Origin: Deltaproteobacteria bacterium
GTDB lineage: Bacteria; Desulfobacterota; Desulfarculia; Adiutricales; Adiutricaceae
DNA length: 51,060 nt
Direction of reading: 5' to 3'
Assembly: GCA_031288415.1 (NCBI GenBank)
Contig: JAITRL010000342.1
Location: forward strand, 1-51,060
The notes under the pieces: generated by a model
What the model saw: the letters and a program-made list of their open reading frames with translations, nothing else
Databases searched by the model: none
Told to the model about the DNA's origin: nothing
Shown here: positions 12,672-19,447 of the stretch, piece after piece
How positions within the stretch are numbered: position 1 is the first letter of the stretch
How the letters are laid out: every line of letters begins with the position of its first letter
Position numbers and translations under genes: made by a program

Positions 12672-12842
12672 AAAATGTCAGCTACCGTGGCCCGCGCTTC
12701 GGTTTGCCGTGCCCTTTACGGCCGTCATCCGCTGCCGCCGCGGCCTGCTGCCGAGCGCGGCTCCGGCCGGCGCAAGTGACGGCGGAGCCCAGCCGCCCGC
12801 CCTTCCCGGCCGTCGGCCTCCCACCCCCTGTTGAGGCGGTAT

Positions 12843-13340
12843 ATGTCAGAAGCGACTCAAAAACTCGACACTGTCCCAGTCCAGACCGAGAACGACGGAA
12901 AATACCTGACCTTCCAGCTGGCCGACGAGGGCTACGGCATCGGCATCCTGAAAGTCCGCGAGATCATCGGCATGCTCCCGGTGACCCCGGTCCCCCAGAC
13001 GCCCTTGTTCCTCAAGGGGGTGATTAACCTCCGCGGCCAGGTCATCCCGGTGGTGGACCTCCGCCTGAAGTTCGGGCTCCCGGAGGAAGAGTACACTGAG
13101 CGAACCAGCATCATCGTGGTGGAGGTAAAGGGCCTTACCGGGAATATCCCCATCGGCATCGTGGTGGACACCGTGTCCGAGGTCATCAACATCCAGGCGC
13201 ACGAGATCGAGCCCGCCCCCGCCTTCGGCTCCACGATAGACATGAACTTCATCCTGGGCATGGCCAAAACCGGCGACGGCGTCAAGATCCTCCTGAACAT
13301 CGACCTGGTGCTTTCCGCCGAGGAGCTGGGCGCCATGTAA
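12843..13340 (+). CDS. cheW: Chemotaxis coupling protein CheW
   Basis: The 165-residue protein is a single CheW domain. It has YLTFQLADEGYGIGILKVREI at the start, a central FLKGVINLRGQVIPVVDLR segment, the PIGIVVDTVSEV segment and a final VKILLNIDLVL strand. CheW links chemoreceptors to the CheA kinase at the inner face of the membrane. The ATG at 12843 with GAGGCGG upstream is preferred to a TTG four codons earlier. No other chemotaxis gene is in the window, so this is an orphan cheW; the only motility-related neighbour is fliI, 26 kb away. Confidence 0.95.
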   Translation: MSEATQKLDTVPVQTENDGKYLTFQLADEGYGIGILKVREIIGMLPVTPVPQTPLFLKGVINLRGQVIPVVDLRLKFGLPEEEYTERTSIIVVEVKGLTGNIPIGIVVDTVSEVINIQAHEIEPAPAFGSTIDMNFILGMAKTGDGVKILLNIDLVLSAEELGAM

Positions 13341-13688: not shown

Positions 13689-14453
13689 ATGACATCTCAA
13701 CGTCAGATCAAATCGGCAGGAACATTCCTGGCCGCCGGGGCCCGCCTGGCGATCCTAGCGGCGGTCGCGCTCGCCGCCGGCTCCTGCGCCCCCCGCTACG
13801 AGTACCGGGCGATTCCGGCCAGGCCCTTGTCCTCGTACCCGGGCCAGGCTCAGGCGGCCGGGGCTAACGTGGGGGCCGTGGCCTTCTATTCCGGCGAACA
13901 GCTCACCGCCCTTTTCGGCTTCGACCTTAAAAAGGCCGGAGTCATCCCGGTCCAGGTCCTTATCCAGAACAACGGCGGCTCCTCGGTCAACGTCCTGGAC
14001 GGGGCCCGGATCGAGGACTCCAACGGACTCTTGTGGGACGTGCTCCCCTCCGAGGTCGTCTACGGGCGCATCAACGACTACACCTCCGGAGGAATCGACG
14101 CCGGGCAGACCGCTCGCCGCACCGCCACCTGGGGCGTGGCCGGCGCCCTCCTGGGCGCGGCCGTGGGGGCCGCCACCGGCACCAACGTGGGCGAGGCGCT
14201 CGGCAAGGGCGCGGCCATCGGCGCCGCCGCAGGAGCCGCGAGCTCCATCACCGGGGTGGGGGTCGATTCGCCCGACACCGAACAGGACGTGGTCGCCGAC
14301 TTCTCTCAGAGATCGCTGGACGGCAAGTCCGCGGCGCCGGGGGAAGAGGTCTCGGGCTTCCTGTACTTCCCCTCCGAAAGCTCCCAGCCCCGCCGCCTGA
14401 CTCTCAACCTGTCCATCGGCGGGCAGCGCCGCAGCGTGACCGTGAACCTCTGA
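13689..14453 (+). CDS. Lipoprotein with a glycine-zipper segment
   Basis: The 254-residue protein starts at the ATG at 13689 (AAGAGAG upstream). A hydrophobic signal ends in the lipobox LAAGSC with C33 as the lipidated cysteine. A beta-rich domain follows, then a glycine-zipper segment at about 160-190 (GALLGAAVGAATG and GAAIGAAAGAAS), then a second beta-rich part. Glycine-zipper lipoproteins often associate with the outer membrane, but the function here is unknown. It stops three bases before the start of mlaE, so it is very likely the first gene of the Mla-type operon and may act in lipid trafficking or envelope integrity. Confidence 0.85.
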   Translation: MTSQRQIKSAGTFLAAGARLAILAAVALAAGSCAPRYEYRAIPARPLSSYPGQAQAAGANVGAVAFYSGEQLTALFGFDLKKAGVIPVQVLIQNNGGSSVNVLDGARIEDSNGLLWDVLPSEVVYGRINDYTSGGIDAGQTARRTATWGVAGALLGAAVGAATGTNVGEALGKGAAIGAAAGAASSITGVGVDSPDTEQDVVADFSQRSLDGKSAAPGEEVSGFLYFPSESSQPRRLTLNLSIGGQRRSVTVNL

Positions 14454-14456
14454 TCC

Positions 14457-15458
14457 TTGGCCACCTCCGACCTGACTCCCCCTTCCCCCGCGCCCCCCGG
14501 TCCTCCGGGAAGGGCTTCCGGAGGCCCCGCTGAGCCTTCCCGAGGCTTTCAAGCCATCCCGGACCCCGCCGCGTTGCGGGGCCCGGGGGCCGGGCCCGCC
14601 GGGGTCGGGGCCTCCCCGGGCCTCGCCCGCAAGGCCGCCCGCGCCGCCTCCCGGAAGGCCTCCGCGGCCACGGGCCGCGCGGGCCGCTTCTTCTGGGCCC
14701 AGGCGGCCGGGCGCGCCGATCGCCTGGCCTTCCTGGGCCGCACCTTCCTGTTGGGCTTGGAGAGCTCCCTGTCGGGCCCCCTGGGCCGCCGGCGGCTCGT
14801 CTGGTCCATGCTCCTCGAACAGGCCGTCCTGTGCTTCAGGAACTCGGCCCTGCTGGCCTCCGTAATGGGGCTCACGGCAGGCTTCCTGTGGACGGTCGTG
14901 TGGTACGGGGTCCTCTCCAACCTCGGCGGCACCGAGACCCTCGTCTCCCTGGCCCTGCGGATCGAGCTGGCCGAGGTGAGCCCCTTCCTGGTCGCCATGG
15001 TGGTCACGGCCGCCTACACGGGCCCCAGCGCCAGCCGCCTGGCCCGGATCCGGACCTCAGGCGGCTTCGAGATCCTCCGCCTGATGGGCATCCCTCCCGC
15101 CCACCTCCTGGCTTGGCCGCGCTTTCTGGGCCAGCTGGCCGCCTTCCCCGTCCTCATACTCTTCCACTGCGCCTTCACCATCATGGGAGTCTGCCTGGGC
15201 ACCCGTTTCTTCGCGGCCTTCCCCGTCTCCGACTTCCTCGCCCTCCTGGTCTCCGGCGTCAAGGCCTACAGCCTCTTCAGGCTGACCGTCCAAAGCATCC
15301 TCATGTCATTCGTCATGAGTTACTGCGCGCTGCATTACCCCTACAGGGCTGTGGAGGGCCCGGGCGTGGAGGTGCCTGACCGCGTATGGCGCGGCGCGCT
15401 CAAGGGCCTGATCTGGGCTTCCCTTTGCGGCCTCCTGGTGAGCGTCCTCTATGCCTAG
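14457..15458 (+). CDS. mlaE: MlaE-family ABC transporter permease
   Basis: The 333-residue inner-membrane protein starts with TTG. An ~80-residue Pro/Ala-rich head precedes a typical MlaE/PF02405 domain with five or six hydrophobic segments. The domain has an LEQAVLCFRNSALLASVMGL opening, a conserved EVSPFLVAMVVTAAYTGPSASRLARI segment and the LRLMGIPPAHLLAWPRFL coupling region. In Mla systems two MlaE copies form the permease for phospholipid transport between the membranes. Its end overlaps the next gene by eight bases. The family assignment is firm; the cargo (phospholipid) is by analogy. Confidence 0.92.
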   Translation: MATSDLTPPSPAPPGPPGRASGGPAEPSRGFQAIPDPAALRGPGAGPAGVGASPGLARKAARAASRKASAATGRAGRFFWAQAAGRADRLAFLGRTFLLGLESSLSGPLGRRRLVWSMLLEQAVLCFRNSALLASVMGLTAGFLWTVVWYGVLSNLGGTETLVSLALRIELAEVSPFLVAMVVTAAYTGPSASRLARIRTSGGFEILRLMGIPPAHLLAWPRFLGQLAAFPVLILFHCAFTIMGVCLGTRFFAAFPVSDFLALLVSGVKAYSLFRLTVQSILMSFVMSYCALHYPYRAVEGPGVEVPDRVWRGALKGLIWASLCGLLVSVLYA

Positions 15459-16185
15459 CCCCCCCGCCCGCGGACGTCCGCCGGCGCGGCCCGAGGACGG
15501 CCGCCCGGCTTCCCCGGCCCTGTCCTTCTCCGGGGTGCATCTCCAGGGAGGCGCCTCCGCCGGTTGCGCGGTCCTCGACCTCGTTCTCTCGCCTGGGGAC
15601 TCCGCGCTGGTGCTCCACCCGGATCCTGAGGTCCTGCGCGAGGTGATCAGCCTCGCGATGTGCTGGTCCAGGCCCCTTGCCGGCTCCGTACTCTGGGAGG
15701 AAGGGAGGGCGCCGTCGGACGACGGGGTCATGGCCCGCCTCCGCTTTAACCGGGGCGTGGGCCTGGTTCACGCTGGCCTCGCCCTGGTGCCCGGCCGTAC
15801 CGTGGTCGAGCACCTTGTCCTGTTCTACCGCTACCACCTTACCGAGCCTCGCCGGACCCTCGCCGCCCGGGCGATCCGGCTTGTCCGCTCGATGGGCCTT
15901 TGCGCCGCCGACCGGCAGGACCTGCGCAAGGTGCATTCCGAGTGGCTGGAGGAAAGGACCCTCAGGATAGGGCTGTACGCCGTGGCCCTGGCCAAGAGCC
16001 CGTGGCTGTTCGTTCTGGAATCCCCCGGCGCCTTTCTTGGCAAGGACTTCCCTCCCCTCTGGGAACGGATAGGGAGCGAGCGCCGCGAACGCGGCGCCGC
16101 CGTGCTGGTCCTGGACCGCTCCGAGGAAGGCTACGGCGAGGGCGCTTTCCGGAGCGTGGCCAGGCTCGGGGGCCCCGCAAGCTGA
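15451..16185 (+). CDS. Degenerate ABC ATPase-like protein in the MlaF position
   Basis: The 244-residue protein is encoded between mlaE and mlaD, where the MlaF ATPase normally sits. Its outline follows an ABC nucleotide-binding domain: an early strand and loop (residues 40-55), a Q-loop-like GLVHAGLALVPGRTVVEHL (104-122) and a helix before LFVLESPG (186-193). The Walker A position reads HPDPEVLRE (56-64) with no GxxGxGKS/T. No LSGGQ is visible. Walker B lacks the Asp-Glu pair (LES instead of DEP). The reading frame is intact with no stops and overlaps mlaE by eight bases. It therefore looks like a maintained but ATPase-dead NBD. An unrelated fold cannot be excluded without a structure prediction. 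Confidence 0.75.
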   Translation: MPSPPARGRPPARPEDGRPASPALSFSGVHLQGGASAGCAVLDLVLSPGDSALVLHPDPEVLREVISLAMCWSRPLAGSVLWEEGRAPSDDGVMARLRFNRGVGLVHAGLALVPGRTVVEHLVLFYRYHLTEPRRTLAARAIRLVRSMGLCAADRQDLRKVHSEWLEERTLRIGLYAVALAKSPWLFVLESPGAFLGKDFPPLWERIGSERRERGAAVLVLDRSEEGYGEGAFRSVARLGGPAS

Positions 16186-16524
16186 GGGCCGGAGGGCCCG
16201 CAGGTCCCCTCAAGCCCTGCCGGGGGCTGAAACCGGACGGCCCGGCAGGGGCCGGCCGCAGGTCTCTGCAGGTTTTCCCGCCTTCCGGGGCGTTCCCGCG
16301 ATTGGGAACCGCCGCCTTAGGACATGTCGGCGGGCCCGGAGAGACCGGAAGGCTTTGACGCGCCGCAAGGCCTGAGCCGTAAGGAAAAGCCCAGGATCAG
16401 GCGGAAAAGGTCAAACGCCGGCGGTTCCCGCGGCCCGGCCGCTTTTCCGGGGGCTGCGGCCCCCCGGCCGCATAAGCGGCGGGCCGCCCCCTCCGGGGAG
16501 GCCGCGCAAGGAGGCAAGGCAGCG
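16186..16524 (+). other. Gap before mlaD
   Basis: 339 bases without a supportable gene. The mlaD frame is open back to 16324 but is Arg/Pro/Ala low-complexity there, and the good Shine-Dalgarno AAGGAGG at 16508-16514 points to the start at 16525. Confidence 0.5.
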
Positions 16525-17487
16525 ATGGCCGAAGAGAGGACAAGACATCTCACGACCAGGGCCCCCTACACCTTCATGGAGAAGCTGACGGGCTTCATAC
16601 TGGTGGCCCTCTTCCTGCTCGTCATGGGCGCCGCGACCATAGTCGGCGCCGGCCGGGGCCTCTTCAGGGGCTACACGGAGTATTTCGCGGTGTTCAGCCA
16701 GGGCTACGGCATCGCGGCCGGCGTGGACGTGCGCTTCTTCGGCATCAGGATCGGCAAGGTCATCGAGGTCGAGCTCCTGGACAACAACAAGATCCGCATG
16801 AGGCTCAGCATCGCCGACGACTACTCCGGCCGGGTGAAGGGGGACTGCCTCGCCATGGTCAAGAGCCCCACCATCATCGGGGCGGAATACATCGAGATCC
16901 AGCCCGGCACCGACCTGTCCAGGCCTATTCCGGAAGGCGGGCAGATCCCGGCCCAAGACGCGGTCACCCTCGAGGACATGGTGGAGTCCCTCGAGATTCC
17001 CAAGAAGATCGCCCAGGCTGACACGCTGATCTCCGACTTCATCAACATCGCCGACCGGCTGCAGGATTCCGAAGGGCCGCTGTTCGCGACCCTGGAGAAT
17101 TTCCGCATCGTCTCCCAGAGGGTGGCCCAGGGCGAAGGCTCGCTGGGGGCCTTGCTGTCGAGGCCCGACGCCCACGATGAGCTTTTCGCCGCCATCCAGG
17201 AGATCCGCCGGGCCTCGGTCTCCATCCGCGACGCCTCCGCCTCGGTGCGGGCCGCGGCCGCCACCCTCGAACGCGACATCCCCGGCATCACCGAGAAGAC
17301 CGAGCAGATCCTGCGCGAGATAGAGCTCGGCACCCAGTCCTTCCCGGAAGTGGCCCGGGGCGCCAGGGAGGGCGTCAGGGACGTGAACCGGGTACTGGAC
17401 TCCGCCAAGAAGAACTTCCTTATCCGCGGGAACCTCACCCCGGATCCGCCTCCCGAAGGCGTCAGCAGCACCCTCAGGGGCCGCTAG
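16525..17487 (+). CDS. mlaD: MlaD-family MCE-domain protein
   Basis: The 320-residue protein has one N-terminal transmembrane helix (about 19-41) and an MCE domain (about 48-130) with VFSQGYGIAAGVDVRFFGIRIGKV. A long helical C-terminal region (about 150-300) has coiled-coil character. MlaD hexamers bind lipid in the periplasm on the MlaE permease. The long C-terminal helices recall tunnel-forming MCE proteins such as PqiB or LetB, but with only one MCE domain. The start at 16525 is chosen for its AAGGAGG site and because the TM helix then lies at the N-terminus. The stop directly abuts the GTG of the next gene. Confidence 0.92.
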   Translation: MAEERTRHLTTRAPYTFMEKLTGFILVALFLLVMGAATIVGAGRGLFRGYTEYFAVFSQGYGIAAGVDVRFFGIRIGKVIEVELLDNNKIRMRLSIADDYSGRVKGDCLAMVKSPTIIGAEYIEIQPGTDLSRPIPEGGQIPAQDAVTLEDMVESLEIPKKIAQADTLISDFINIADRLQDSEGPLFATLENFRIVSQRVAQGEGSLGALLSRPDAHDELFAAIQEIRRASVSIRDASASVRAAAATLERDIPGITEKTEQILREIELGTQSFPEVARGAREGVRDVNRVLDSAKKNFLIRGNLTPDPPPEGVSSTLRGR

Positions 17488-18501
17488 GTGTCCGGCCCGC
17501 TCCCGCGCCGCGCGCCTGCGGCATCCGGCTTCCCTGCCGCCCCCCGCGCTTTCCTCGCGCCCTTGGCCCTGGCCGCCCTGGCCGCCCTGGCCCTCTCGGC
17601 GGCCGGCTGCGGGGGCCCCCTGCCGCCGGCTGATCCCTTCTACCTCGGATCCGCCAAGGACTCCCTTTCCCGGGGCAACCACTGGTACCTGCGCGGCTGC
17701 TTCCGCGAGGCGGCCAGGTTCTACGATGAGGCCCTCGCCTCCGCCCGCCTCTCCGATTCGGTGGTCCACATGGTGATGTCCTTGAACGCCCTGGGGGCGG
17801 TGCGGCTCGCGGAAGGGAACCTGGGCGCCGCCGCGGCCCTCCTGGACGAGGCCGCCGAGCTCTCCCGCTCGGATCCCGCCATGCCCGAGCTCCCCGCGGT
17901 CCTCGGCAACCTGGGGACCCTCGCCTGGCGGGCGGGAAGGCGTTCCGACGCGCTCGGCTTCTGGGAGGATGCCGCTTCCCGCGCCCAGGCCGCAGGCCTG
18001 TCCCCCGCCGTTCACCTGGCGAGCCTCGCCAGGGCCAGGCTCGGCGAGGGCGCCCCTGCGGAGGCCGCCTTCGCCGATGCCCTCGAACGGGCCCGGGCCA
18101 GCCTGGAGCATCCCGGCACGCCGCCTGCGGCTAGAGCGGACGTCCTCAACCTCCTGGCCAGGGATGCCTACCGCAGGGGGCTTTTGGAAGAGTCGCGGTC
18201 CTTCCTTTCCCAGGCCCTGGAGATCGACCGCCACGAGGAGAACCAGGCCGGCCTGGCCGAGGACCTGGAACTCTCGGCGAAGCTCCAGGGGGCGGCGGAA
18301 GACTTCCCCGCCGCGGCCTCCAGCCTGGAGCGGGCCTTTTACCTGCGCGCGGCCCTCAAGGACCGGGAAGGGACGCGCAGGGTTCTTTCCGCCTTAAGGG
18401 AACTCCGCCTCTCCGCAGGCCTGCCCAAAAGCCTCGAGCGCATCGAGGCGGTGGCCAGGGACCCTGAGCTCTTCAGCCCGATGGACGACCGCTGCCCCTG
18501 A
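17488..18501 (+). CDS. TPR-repeat lipoprotein of the Mla operon
   Basis: The 337-residue protein starts at the GTG immediately following the mlaD stop. A signal with lipobox LSAAGC puts the lipidated cysteine at C41. The rest is helical with several TPR-like repeats (for example about 55-95, 95-140 and 195-240). Canonical Mla operons have a periplasmic MlaC and a cytoplasmic STAS protein MlaB here; neither is present. This lipoprotein is thus a candidate periplasmic or outer-membrane partner of MlaD, which is inference from position. An intrinsic terminator overlaps its last codons, so it ends the operon. Confidence 0.85.
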   Translation: MSGPLPRRAPAASGFPAAPRAFLAPLALAALAALALSAAGCGGPLPPADPFYLGSAKDSLSRGNHWYLRGCFREAARFYDEALASARLSDSVVHMVMSLNALGAVRLAEGNLGAAAALLDEAAELSRSDPAMPELPAVLGNLGTLAWRAGRRSDALGFWEDAASRAQAAGLSPAVHLASLARARLGEGAPAEAAFADALERARASLEHPGTPPAARADVLNLLARDAYRRGLLEESRSFLSQALEIDRHEENQAGLAEDLELSAKLQGAAEDFPAAASSLERAFYLRAALKDREGTRRVLSALRELRLSAGLPKSLERIEAVARDPELFSPMDDRCP

Positions 18502-18515: not shown

Positions 18516-18658
18516 CCGGTCCCTCCCCCGGCGGCCGTTTTCCATTCGCCGAGCGGGCCTCCGCCCCCGCTCCGCCGCCCTTCCGGCCAAACCCTGAAGC
18601 CGTCCGCAAGGGGCTTTTTCCATGCTCCTTGAGACTTGACGCGGGAAAGGTTGTCCAG

Positions 18659-19447
18659 ATGCACTTCAGAAACGAGGGCCCCCCCGCTGACCCGCCCCCC
18701 AGGGACGGGGCCCCTGCGGCCCCGCCGGAACCCGCGGCCGGGACCCCTCACGAGGTGGCCCCGTTCAGGAGCGCGGAGGACGACGGGGCCGGCCAGGCCC
18801 TCTGGTCCCTGGAGGCCTGGCGCGCCGCCGCCCCCATCCTGGAAAAGATCCTCGCCCACCCCTTCATCGCCGGGCTACTGGACGGGTCGCTGCCCCGGGA
18901 CGTCTTCACCTTCTACATCTGTCAGGACTCCCTGTACCTGGATGATTTCGCGCGGATCCTCTCGGCCGCCTCCCTCAAGGCCCCCGGCCCGCAGGAGGCT
19001 AAATTCCTGTGCGAGGCGGCCCTGGAGGCGGGCGCGGTGGAAGGGGCCCTTCACGGGAGCTACCTCAAGGGGCAAGACAGGCCTCCCGCGCCCTCCCCCT
19101 CGTGCCTCCTGTACACCTCCTTCCTCTACAGGCACTTCGCCCGCTCCCCTTTCAGCGTGCTCATGGCCTCGCTCCTGCCCTGCTTCTGGATCTACCTCGC
19201 GGTGGGCCGCCACATGCTGTCGCTCTCCGCCGACTCCCGCGGCAACCCCTACCGCGACTGGATAAACACCTACGGCGGCGAGGATTACGCGAGATCCGTC
19301 GACCGGGCGGTGCGGATCTGCGACAGGCTGGCTGCGGCGGAAAGCCCCCAGGGCCGCGAGGACATGCTCCAGGCCTTTCTCGCGGCGTCGAGGATGGAGT
19401 GGATGTTCTGGGACAGCGCCTACAGGAAGGAGGCCTGGCCTGTTTGA
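18659..19447 (+). CDS. tenA: TenA-family thiaminase II / HMP-salvage enzyme
   Basis: The 262-residue all-helical TenA domain follows a ~45-residue Pro-rich head. Active-site positions are conserved: D90 in FYICQDSLYL, C175 in LLPCFWIY and E247 in MEWMFWDSAY. TenA hydrolyses thiamine or its degradation product aminopyrimidine to HMP for thiamine salvage. The ATG at 18659 has GGGAAAGG eight bases upstream; an in-frame TTG at 18629 is less likely. I looked for a TPP riboswitch in the 150 bases upstream and saw none. The gene stands alone after the terminator of the Mla operon. Confidence 0.92.
   Translation: MHFRNEGPPADPPPRDGAPAAPPEPAAGTPHEVAPFRSAEDDGAGQALWSLEAWRAAAPILEKILAHPFIAGLLDGSLPRDVFTFYICQDSLYLDDFARILSAASLKAPGPQEAKFLCEAALEAGAVEGALHGSYLKGQDRPPAPSPSCLLYTSFLYRHFARSPFSVLMASLLPCFWIYLAVGRHMLSLSADSRGNPYRDWINTYGGEDYARSVDRAVRICDRLAAAESPQGREDMLQAFLAASRMEWMFWDSAYRKEAWPV

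Follow-up and report, generated by a model that had tools for sequence, protein, structure and literature searches.

A motif-less ABC-type protein conserved in the MlaF position of Mla-type operons of Desulfobacterota

What becomes of an Mla-type transporter when the subunit in the position of its ATPase no longer carries the residues for using ATP? The question is raised by the window, by which we mean the whole stretch of 51,060 nucleotides that was analyzed (contig JAITRL010000342.1, from a deltaproteobacterial genome of 4.7 Mb in 381 contigs, 83% complete). Here, homologues of MlaE and MlaD flank a protein that had been noted, from the sequence alone, to have the outline of a nucleotide-binding domain (NBD) without its motifs, and which we call psNBD.

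The operon and its neighbors

The features of the locus are listed below; the four motif entries refer to aligned motif positions.

13689..14453, + strand: putative lipoprotein with a glycine-zipper segment (ORF from 13404)
14457..15458, + strand: mlaE-type permease (ORF with a TTG start, conserved domain from ~14814, true start unsure; divergent coupling helix)
15451..16185, + strand: psNBD, pseudo-ATPase with an ABC NBD fold in the MlaF position, 244 aa
15616..15639, + strand: former Walker A of psNBD, GxxGxGKS changed to HPDPEVLR, residues 56-63
15946..15960, + strand: former ABC signature of psNBD, LSGGQ changed to LEERT, residues 166-170
16018..16026, + strand: former Walker B/catalytic Glu of psNBD, DEP changed to ESP, residues 190-192
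16117..16119, + strand: former H-loop (switch) His of psNBD, changed to Arg 223
16525..17487, + strand: mlaD, MCE protein, long form of ~320 aa (ORF opens at 16324; AAGGAGG precedes the ATG at 16525)
17488..18501, + strand: TPR protein with an N-terminal signal and a lipobox-like AAGCGGP, a conserved partner gene

The sequence-only reading had described the central protein as lacking Walker A, LSGGQ, and the Walker B Asp-Glu pair, and the aligned positions, which read HPDPEVLR, LEERT, and ES, bear this out. The overlap of its intact frame with mlaE is equally real: the ATG of the 244-residue ORF lies inside the 3' end of mlaE, with 8 bases shared (ATGCCTAG; mlaE stop codon at 15456-15458). The DNA is 67-71% GC, however, and the intact frame is therefore weak evidence by itself. 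A P-loop motif was absent from every reading frame of positions 15001-16700, so no simple frameshift conceals one, and a hidden frameshift or alternative frame carrying the motifs was excluded.

MlaE and MlaD had both been called intact. This held for their domains, as window MlaE matched PF02405 at 1.5e-19 and window MlaD matched PF02470 at 7e-14, each above the curated cut-off. It held only in part for MlaE as a whole, which has an intact frame but is divergent: the protein scored 72 bits in a search of the genome versus 265 and 220 bits for the genome's two other MlaE copies, its coupling helix is altered (SRLARIRTSGGFEIL versus AELAAMKVTEQIDAL in the canonical copy), and the set of coupling-helix contacts known from E. 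coli MlaE (E119, E127/Q128, and the D130 region) is missing.

The gene order lipoprotein-mlaE-psNBD-mlaD-TPR is constant among orthologous loci, apart from minor deviations in one genus and where contigs end, and the glycine-zipper lipoprotein gene is conserved immediately upstream of mlaE in the window's family and in the related group f3. In nearly all genomes of the family (f1), a CheW-domain gene (12831-13340, + strand) also immediately precedes the lipoprotein gene that opens the operon; no such neighbor was seen in f3 or in other Desulfobacterota.

An ABC fold without the residues for ATP hydrolysis

Searched alone, the window psNBD gave zero Pfam matches even at E ≤ 1 and weak ABC matches in NCBIfam (E 0.02-0.2), so that a family profile was needed to establish its nature as an NBD. 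A profile of 36 psNBD orthologues matched PDB profiles of ArtP-type ATPases at 1.7e-26, and also those of LolD and FtsE, and aligned to the genome's own MlaF with 99% probability; a chance resemblance to an NBD is ruled out by these profile scores. The comparison with ABC_tran (PF00005) that had been proposed thus failed for the window protein and succeeded at the level of its family, 20 of the 36 members matching singly (best 9e-8). AlphaFold predicted a confident ABC nucleotide-binding fold for the window psNBD (pLDDT 91, pTM 0.88), and E. coli MlaF (6xgz) ranked second among its Foldseek matches in the PDB (E 3e-11, TM 0.71), with an rmsd of 2.8 over 207 superposed columns. For a distantly related second psNBD, taken from a relative whose only MlaE is that of the pseudo-operon, the prediction reached a pLDDT of 93.3, and the structural matches of this protein in the PDB were NBDs with E values down to 3e-17, including MlaF (6xbd) at 1.8e-15. 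The NBD-like outline is thereby upheld, and a non-ABC fold, which would have refuted it, is ruled out by the two predicted structures and their NBD matches. By fold and family-level homology psNBD belongs with the ABC NBDs (PF00005), and it has none of Walker A, LSGGQ, the Walker B Asp, the catalytic Glu, and the switch His.

Residues were compared among 19 canonical MlaF paralogues, 65 psNBDs from outside the window's family, and 31 from inside it. The Walker Lys and the catalytic Glu are each present in 19 of 19 canonical proteins versus 0 of 65 and 0 of 31 psNBDs, and Arg stands in place of the Glu in 27/65 and 24/31. Conservation of Walker A and the signature has come down to or near background in the psNBDs. 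At the former Walker B turn it is above the protein average (2.84 versus 2.08 and 3.22 versus 2.03 bits), and the turn now forms a conserved (E/D)RP motif, the consensus of the psNBD family, with an invariant Pro (that of DEP, and of ESP in the window). Could such a protein bind nucleotide in a non-canonical manner? The retained NBD fold and the newly conserved (E/D)RP turn speak for this idea, but none of the P-loop Lys and Ser/Thr, the Q-loop, the signature, and the His survives, and these positions vary freely; we regard the idea as scarcely tenable. The results demonstrate that psNBD is an ABC NBD homologue with the corresponding predicted fold, that all of its ATP-binding and hydrolysis residues are lost, and that its position in the operon is fixed. 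Hydrolysis of ATP at psNBD is excluded as far as sequence can exclude it; what the protein does or does not do with ATP is itself inferred.

Distribution of the motif loss and selection on psNBD

A degenerate psNBD orthologue occupies the same operon in 33 of the 37 genomes of the window's family, the remaining four giving no psNBD match. Orthologues are also found in both f3 genomes of the order and in one Desulfarculaceae MAG, and all of these are motif-less. The named records recovered come from Desulfobacterota, the phylum to which the window is assigned by inference. Local decay in a single genome was rejected, as the orthologues across the family are equally devoid of the motifs. A first scan of the genome collection with the window psNBD alone as the query found nothing because the protein evolves too fast, and MlaE was taken as the query instead. 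In this wider survey, loci in the genome collection and the phylum were picked by MlaE, not by the state of the NBD, which yielded 68 named and 30 further loci, and the NBD adjacent to each MlaE was then read. In a tree of MlaE plus NBD (109 rows), 74 motif-less rows fall in one clade (SH-aLRT 98); three changes are needed to account for the 76 null rows overall. The clade comprises 74 non-redundant operons across Desulfobacterota, every one of them without the motifs, from Desulfobacterales, Syntrophales-type and related MAGs, and the cultured Desulfosarcina widdelii, Desulfobotulus alkaliphilus, and Desulfoluna. Neither these operons nor any of the family orthologues keep GxxGxGKS, the finding that would have pointed to a purely local defect. 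We conclude that the loss of the NBD motifs is clade-wide and ancient.

Intact versions of the NBD occur outside the clade in Fibrobacterota, Gemmatimonadota, Spirochaetes, and some Desulfobacterota. Also outside it, one Desulfobacterota group has DDP in place of DEP, and Krumholzibacteriia have loops of the GPSGSGLS type, in which the Walker A Lys is replaced by Leu. With this graded series (intact, then Lys to Leu or Glu to Asp, then fully lost), a route from ABC ATPase to pseudoenzyme becomes traceable. The MlaF-like proteins of two Krumholzibacteriia loci (L131 and L133) combine the Lys to Leu change with an almost intact Walker B, apparently an independent first step of the same loss. In another Desulfobacterota lineage (L171-L175), a half-degenerate NBD of the APVASGKS type, without the catalytic Glu, lies beside MlaE. 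The MlaF position in Azonexus/Dechloromonas (L140 and L143) holds a very divergent P-loop protein on a long branch, with GTTGSGKT or GPPASGKT and with IDG for DEP.

For 56 close pairs (NG86), the median dN/dS was 0.19 for psNBD versus 0.13 for MlaE. Outside the window's family the psNBD ratio is ~0.2, and the protein is under sequence constraint there; in the window's genus the ratio is 0.5-0.7 versus ~0.3 for MlaE. NG86 probably underestimates dS at 85-90% GC3, which biases dN/dS upward, and in view of the high GC and the values of 0.5-0.7 the ratios of the window's genus were not used as proof of constraint. These weak values, the four family genomes without a psNBD match, and the fact that open frames are less informative at high GC would all agree with a slow decay, in which the NBD is dispensable and drifts to loss in the window's lineage. 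Such drift is hard to reconcile with a position kept in 33 of 37 family genomes, an open frame throughout a clade of 74 operons, a new conserved motif joined to a confident fold, and strong constraint outside the window's lineage, the NG86 ratios themselves being upper-biased; we consider it very unlikely. The earlier argument for retained function rather than decay, which had rested on the overlapping frame, thus gains better support from how deeply gene, operon, and fold are conserved and from dN/dS ratios clearly below 1 outside the window's family.

Source of power and role of the complex

Three options had been offered for the locus: transport not driven by this protein, a separate ATPase elsewhere, or a regulatory pseudo-ATPase. 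The search for a second mlaF was successful, as the window's genome has three MlaE loci, two of which (C288 and C262) are strong MlaE matches with a motif-intact MlaF alongside. Nine well-assembled family genomes always have three MlaE loci, two strong ones of canonical type and a weak one at the psNBD locus. Two to four MlaE loci, and hence at least one beyond the pseudo-system, were found in 30 of 32 other genomes searched, and a second ATPase probably exists in most of the 32. A canonical MlaF from another operon might therefore power the window MlaE, either alone or as a heterodimer with psNBD. The two motif-intact MlaF genes and the regular set of three loci in the nine genomes are in keeping with this possibility, and the unlinked, shared MceG, a single one of which can serve several MlaE-type permeases, provides a precedent (PMC9947336). 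The flanks retrieved for the clade loci, up to ~6 kb in length, contained no second NBD; a working partner encoded alongside psNBD, as in a degenerate-site heterodimer, was accordingly missing there.

Two single-chromosome relatives (G446 and G447; CP070768.1, 3.4 Mb, and CP070660.1, 1.7 Mb) weigh against supply in trans. The pseudo-operon holds their sole MlaE, and their best scores with an MlaF query (114 and 122 bits) did not exceed the level of ABC proteins in general, versus 191-208 bits in three control genomes possessing MlaF. As these two genomes lack both a further MlaE and any MlaF-like gene, the system does not require an ATPase in trans. In addition, window MlaE reads SGGFEI at the EExDA-type motif of the coupling helix, which in YrbE is the proposed MceG-binding site (PMC9947336). 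E127 is present in 0 of 96 pseudo-system MlaE proteins; a motif-intact sister group is also without E127, and its loss was therefore dropped as proof against docking of canonical MlaF. An ATPase elsewhere is thus unneeded in the two relatives and cannot be excluded for the window's own genome; overall, we judge it unlikely.

We favor, with a probability of roughly 0.6, the interpretation that psNBD is a conserved pseudo-ATPase acting as a structural clamp or regulatory gate of an Mla-type transporter whose lipid flux is not driven by its own NBDs. By analogy with MlaF, two psNBD subunits would sit beneath the MlaE dimer, resting on the coupling helices (docking is inferred, with no experiment behind it), and the pair may hold or gate the permease. 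The long MlaD hexamer would carry lipid over the periplasm, although transport is again inferred, and the TPR and glycine-zipper lipoproteins would be putative envelope partners. Lipid flux might run downhill or be otherwise powered, as may hold for the MCE systems Pqi and Let, which are described as being without an ATPase (PMC12436622). In E. coli, R52 of MlaF touches the coupling helix of MlaE (PMC7784689), and the equivalent of R52 is Lys or Arg in 55 of 65 psNBDs outside the window's family. Inside the family only a minority retain it, and MlaE R111 is likewise mostly lost; along with the weak psNBD constraint in the window's genus, these losses count against our interpretation, and the complex could be drifting out of use in this family. 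Furthermore, Walker B mutants of M. tuberculosis MceG destabilize Mce1 and Mce4 (PMC9947336); hence it cannot be assumed that an inactive NBD will stabilize its complex well.

A complex that no longer transports, and that persists as a lipid sensor, scaffold, or envelope organizer, would also fit the loss of every catalytic motif, the erosion of R111 and of the coupling helix of MlaE in the window's family, and the CheW gene adjoining the operon across the family. The domains of MlaE and MlaD nevertheless remain recognizable, and purifying selection acts on MlaE (median dN/dS 0.13); we find this role quite unlikely. The clamp or gate interpretation can be extended to the whole Desulfobacterota-wide Mla clade only tentatively, at somewhat less than even odds: the clade would be an ATP-hydrolysis-free lipid conduit, fixed since an ancient ancestor, in which an ABC ATPase became a docked structural or regulatory subunit of a passive or differently powered lipid bridge. 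A dead subunit kept for so long suggests either that lipid moves without the burning of ATP or that the subunit is used in a role other than power.

Like MlaFEDB of E. coli, A. baumannii, and P. aeruginosa, the window operon brings together MlaE, an NBD-fold subunit in the MlaF position, and MlaD. It differs in that psNBD lacks the ATPase motifs and the C-terminal tail of MlaF, in having no MlaB or MlaC, and in its long form of MlaD; the active MlaF ATPase of MlaFEDB and MlaEFD is absent from this operon. No MlaC (PF05494) was found in the window's genome, itself 83% complete. The MlaC shuttle belongs only to the six-part version of Mla. The minimal trans-envelope MlaEFD system of Veillonella parvula (Grasekamp 2023, PMC10665443) shares with the window the three core genes, the long MlaD, and the lack of MlaC, and the two probably have the same ancestral layout, but the MlaF of Veillonella is very similar to its counterparts in model diderms, in contrast to the dead NBD of the window. 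In that survey, synteny together with a canonical profile was the only means by which MlaF was identified, and the protein was left out of the tree, its annotation being uncertain (PMC10665443), so pseudo-NBDs could have been missed. More generally, psNBDs lie near or below single-sequence ABC profiles, and surveys based on canonical MlaF would score such operons as subunit-less.

Mycobacterial Mce1 and Mce4 also combine MCE proteins with MlaE-like permeases in operons devoid of a working ATPase; they depend on the shared MceG encoded elsewhere, whereas the window operon keeps a degenerate NBD. PqiABC and LetAB of E. coli resemble the window system in having MCE tunnels and a membrane subunit without an ATPase (PMC12436622), but neither PqiA nor LetA is an MlaE permease or carries an NBD relic. 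Evolution has partly disabled an NBD in the heterodimeric degenerate-site ABC transporters TmrAB, BmrCD, and PatAB as well; in these, a functional site accompanies the impaired one, whereas the only NBD of the window operon is motif-less, and both sites would be gone in a homodimer. A literature search, with most subscription papers outside its scope, brought up no description of an Mla or Mce system that has a pseudo-ATPase, in agreement with the earlier impression of novelty. The role of ATP in Mla transport and the direction of lipid movement are disputed. A natural Mla complex with an NBD seemingly incapable of using ATP, kept across many genera, reveals which parts are needed without hydrolysis and offers a direct test.

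The TPR protein (17488-18501, + strand) is a conserved companion of the pseudo-system in several distant clades (Syntrophales-type, Krumholzibacteriia, and the CP0706/CP0708 MAGs); its gene was not detected next to most Desulfobacterales copies. A gene for a TENA/THI-4/PQQC family protein (18629-19447, + strand) lies downstream of the operon in some relatives.
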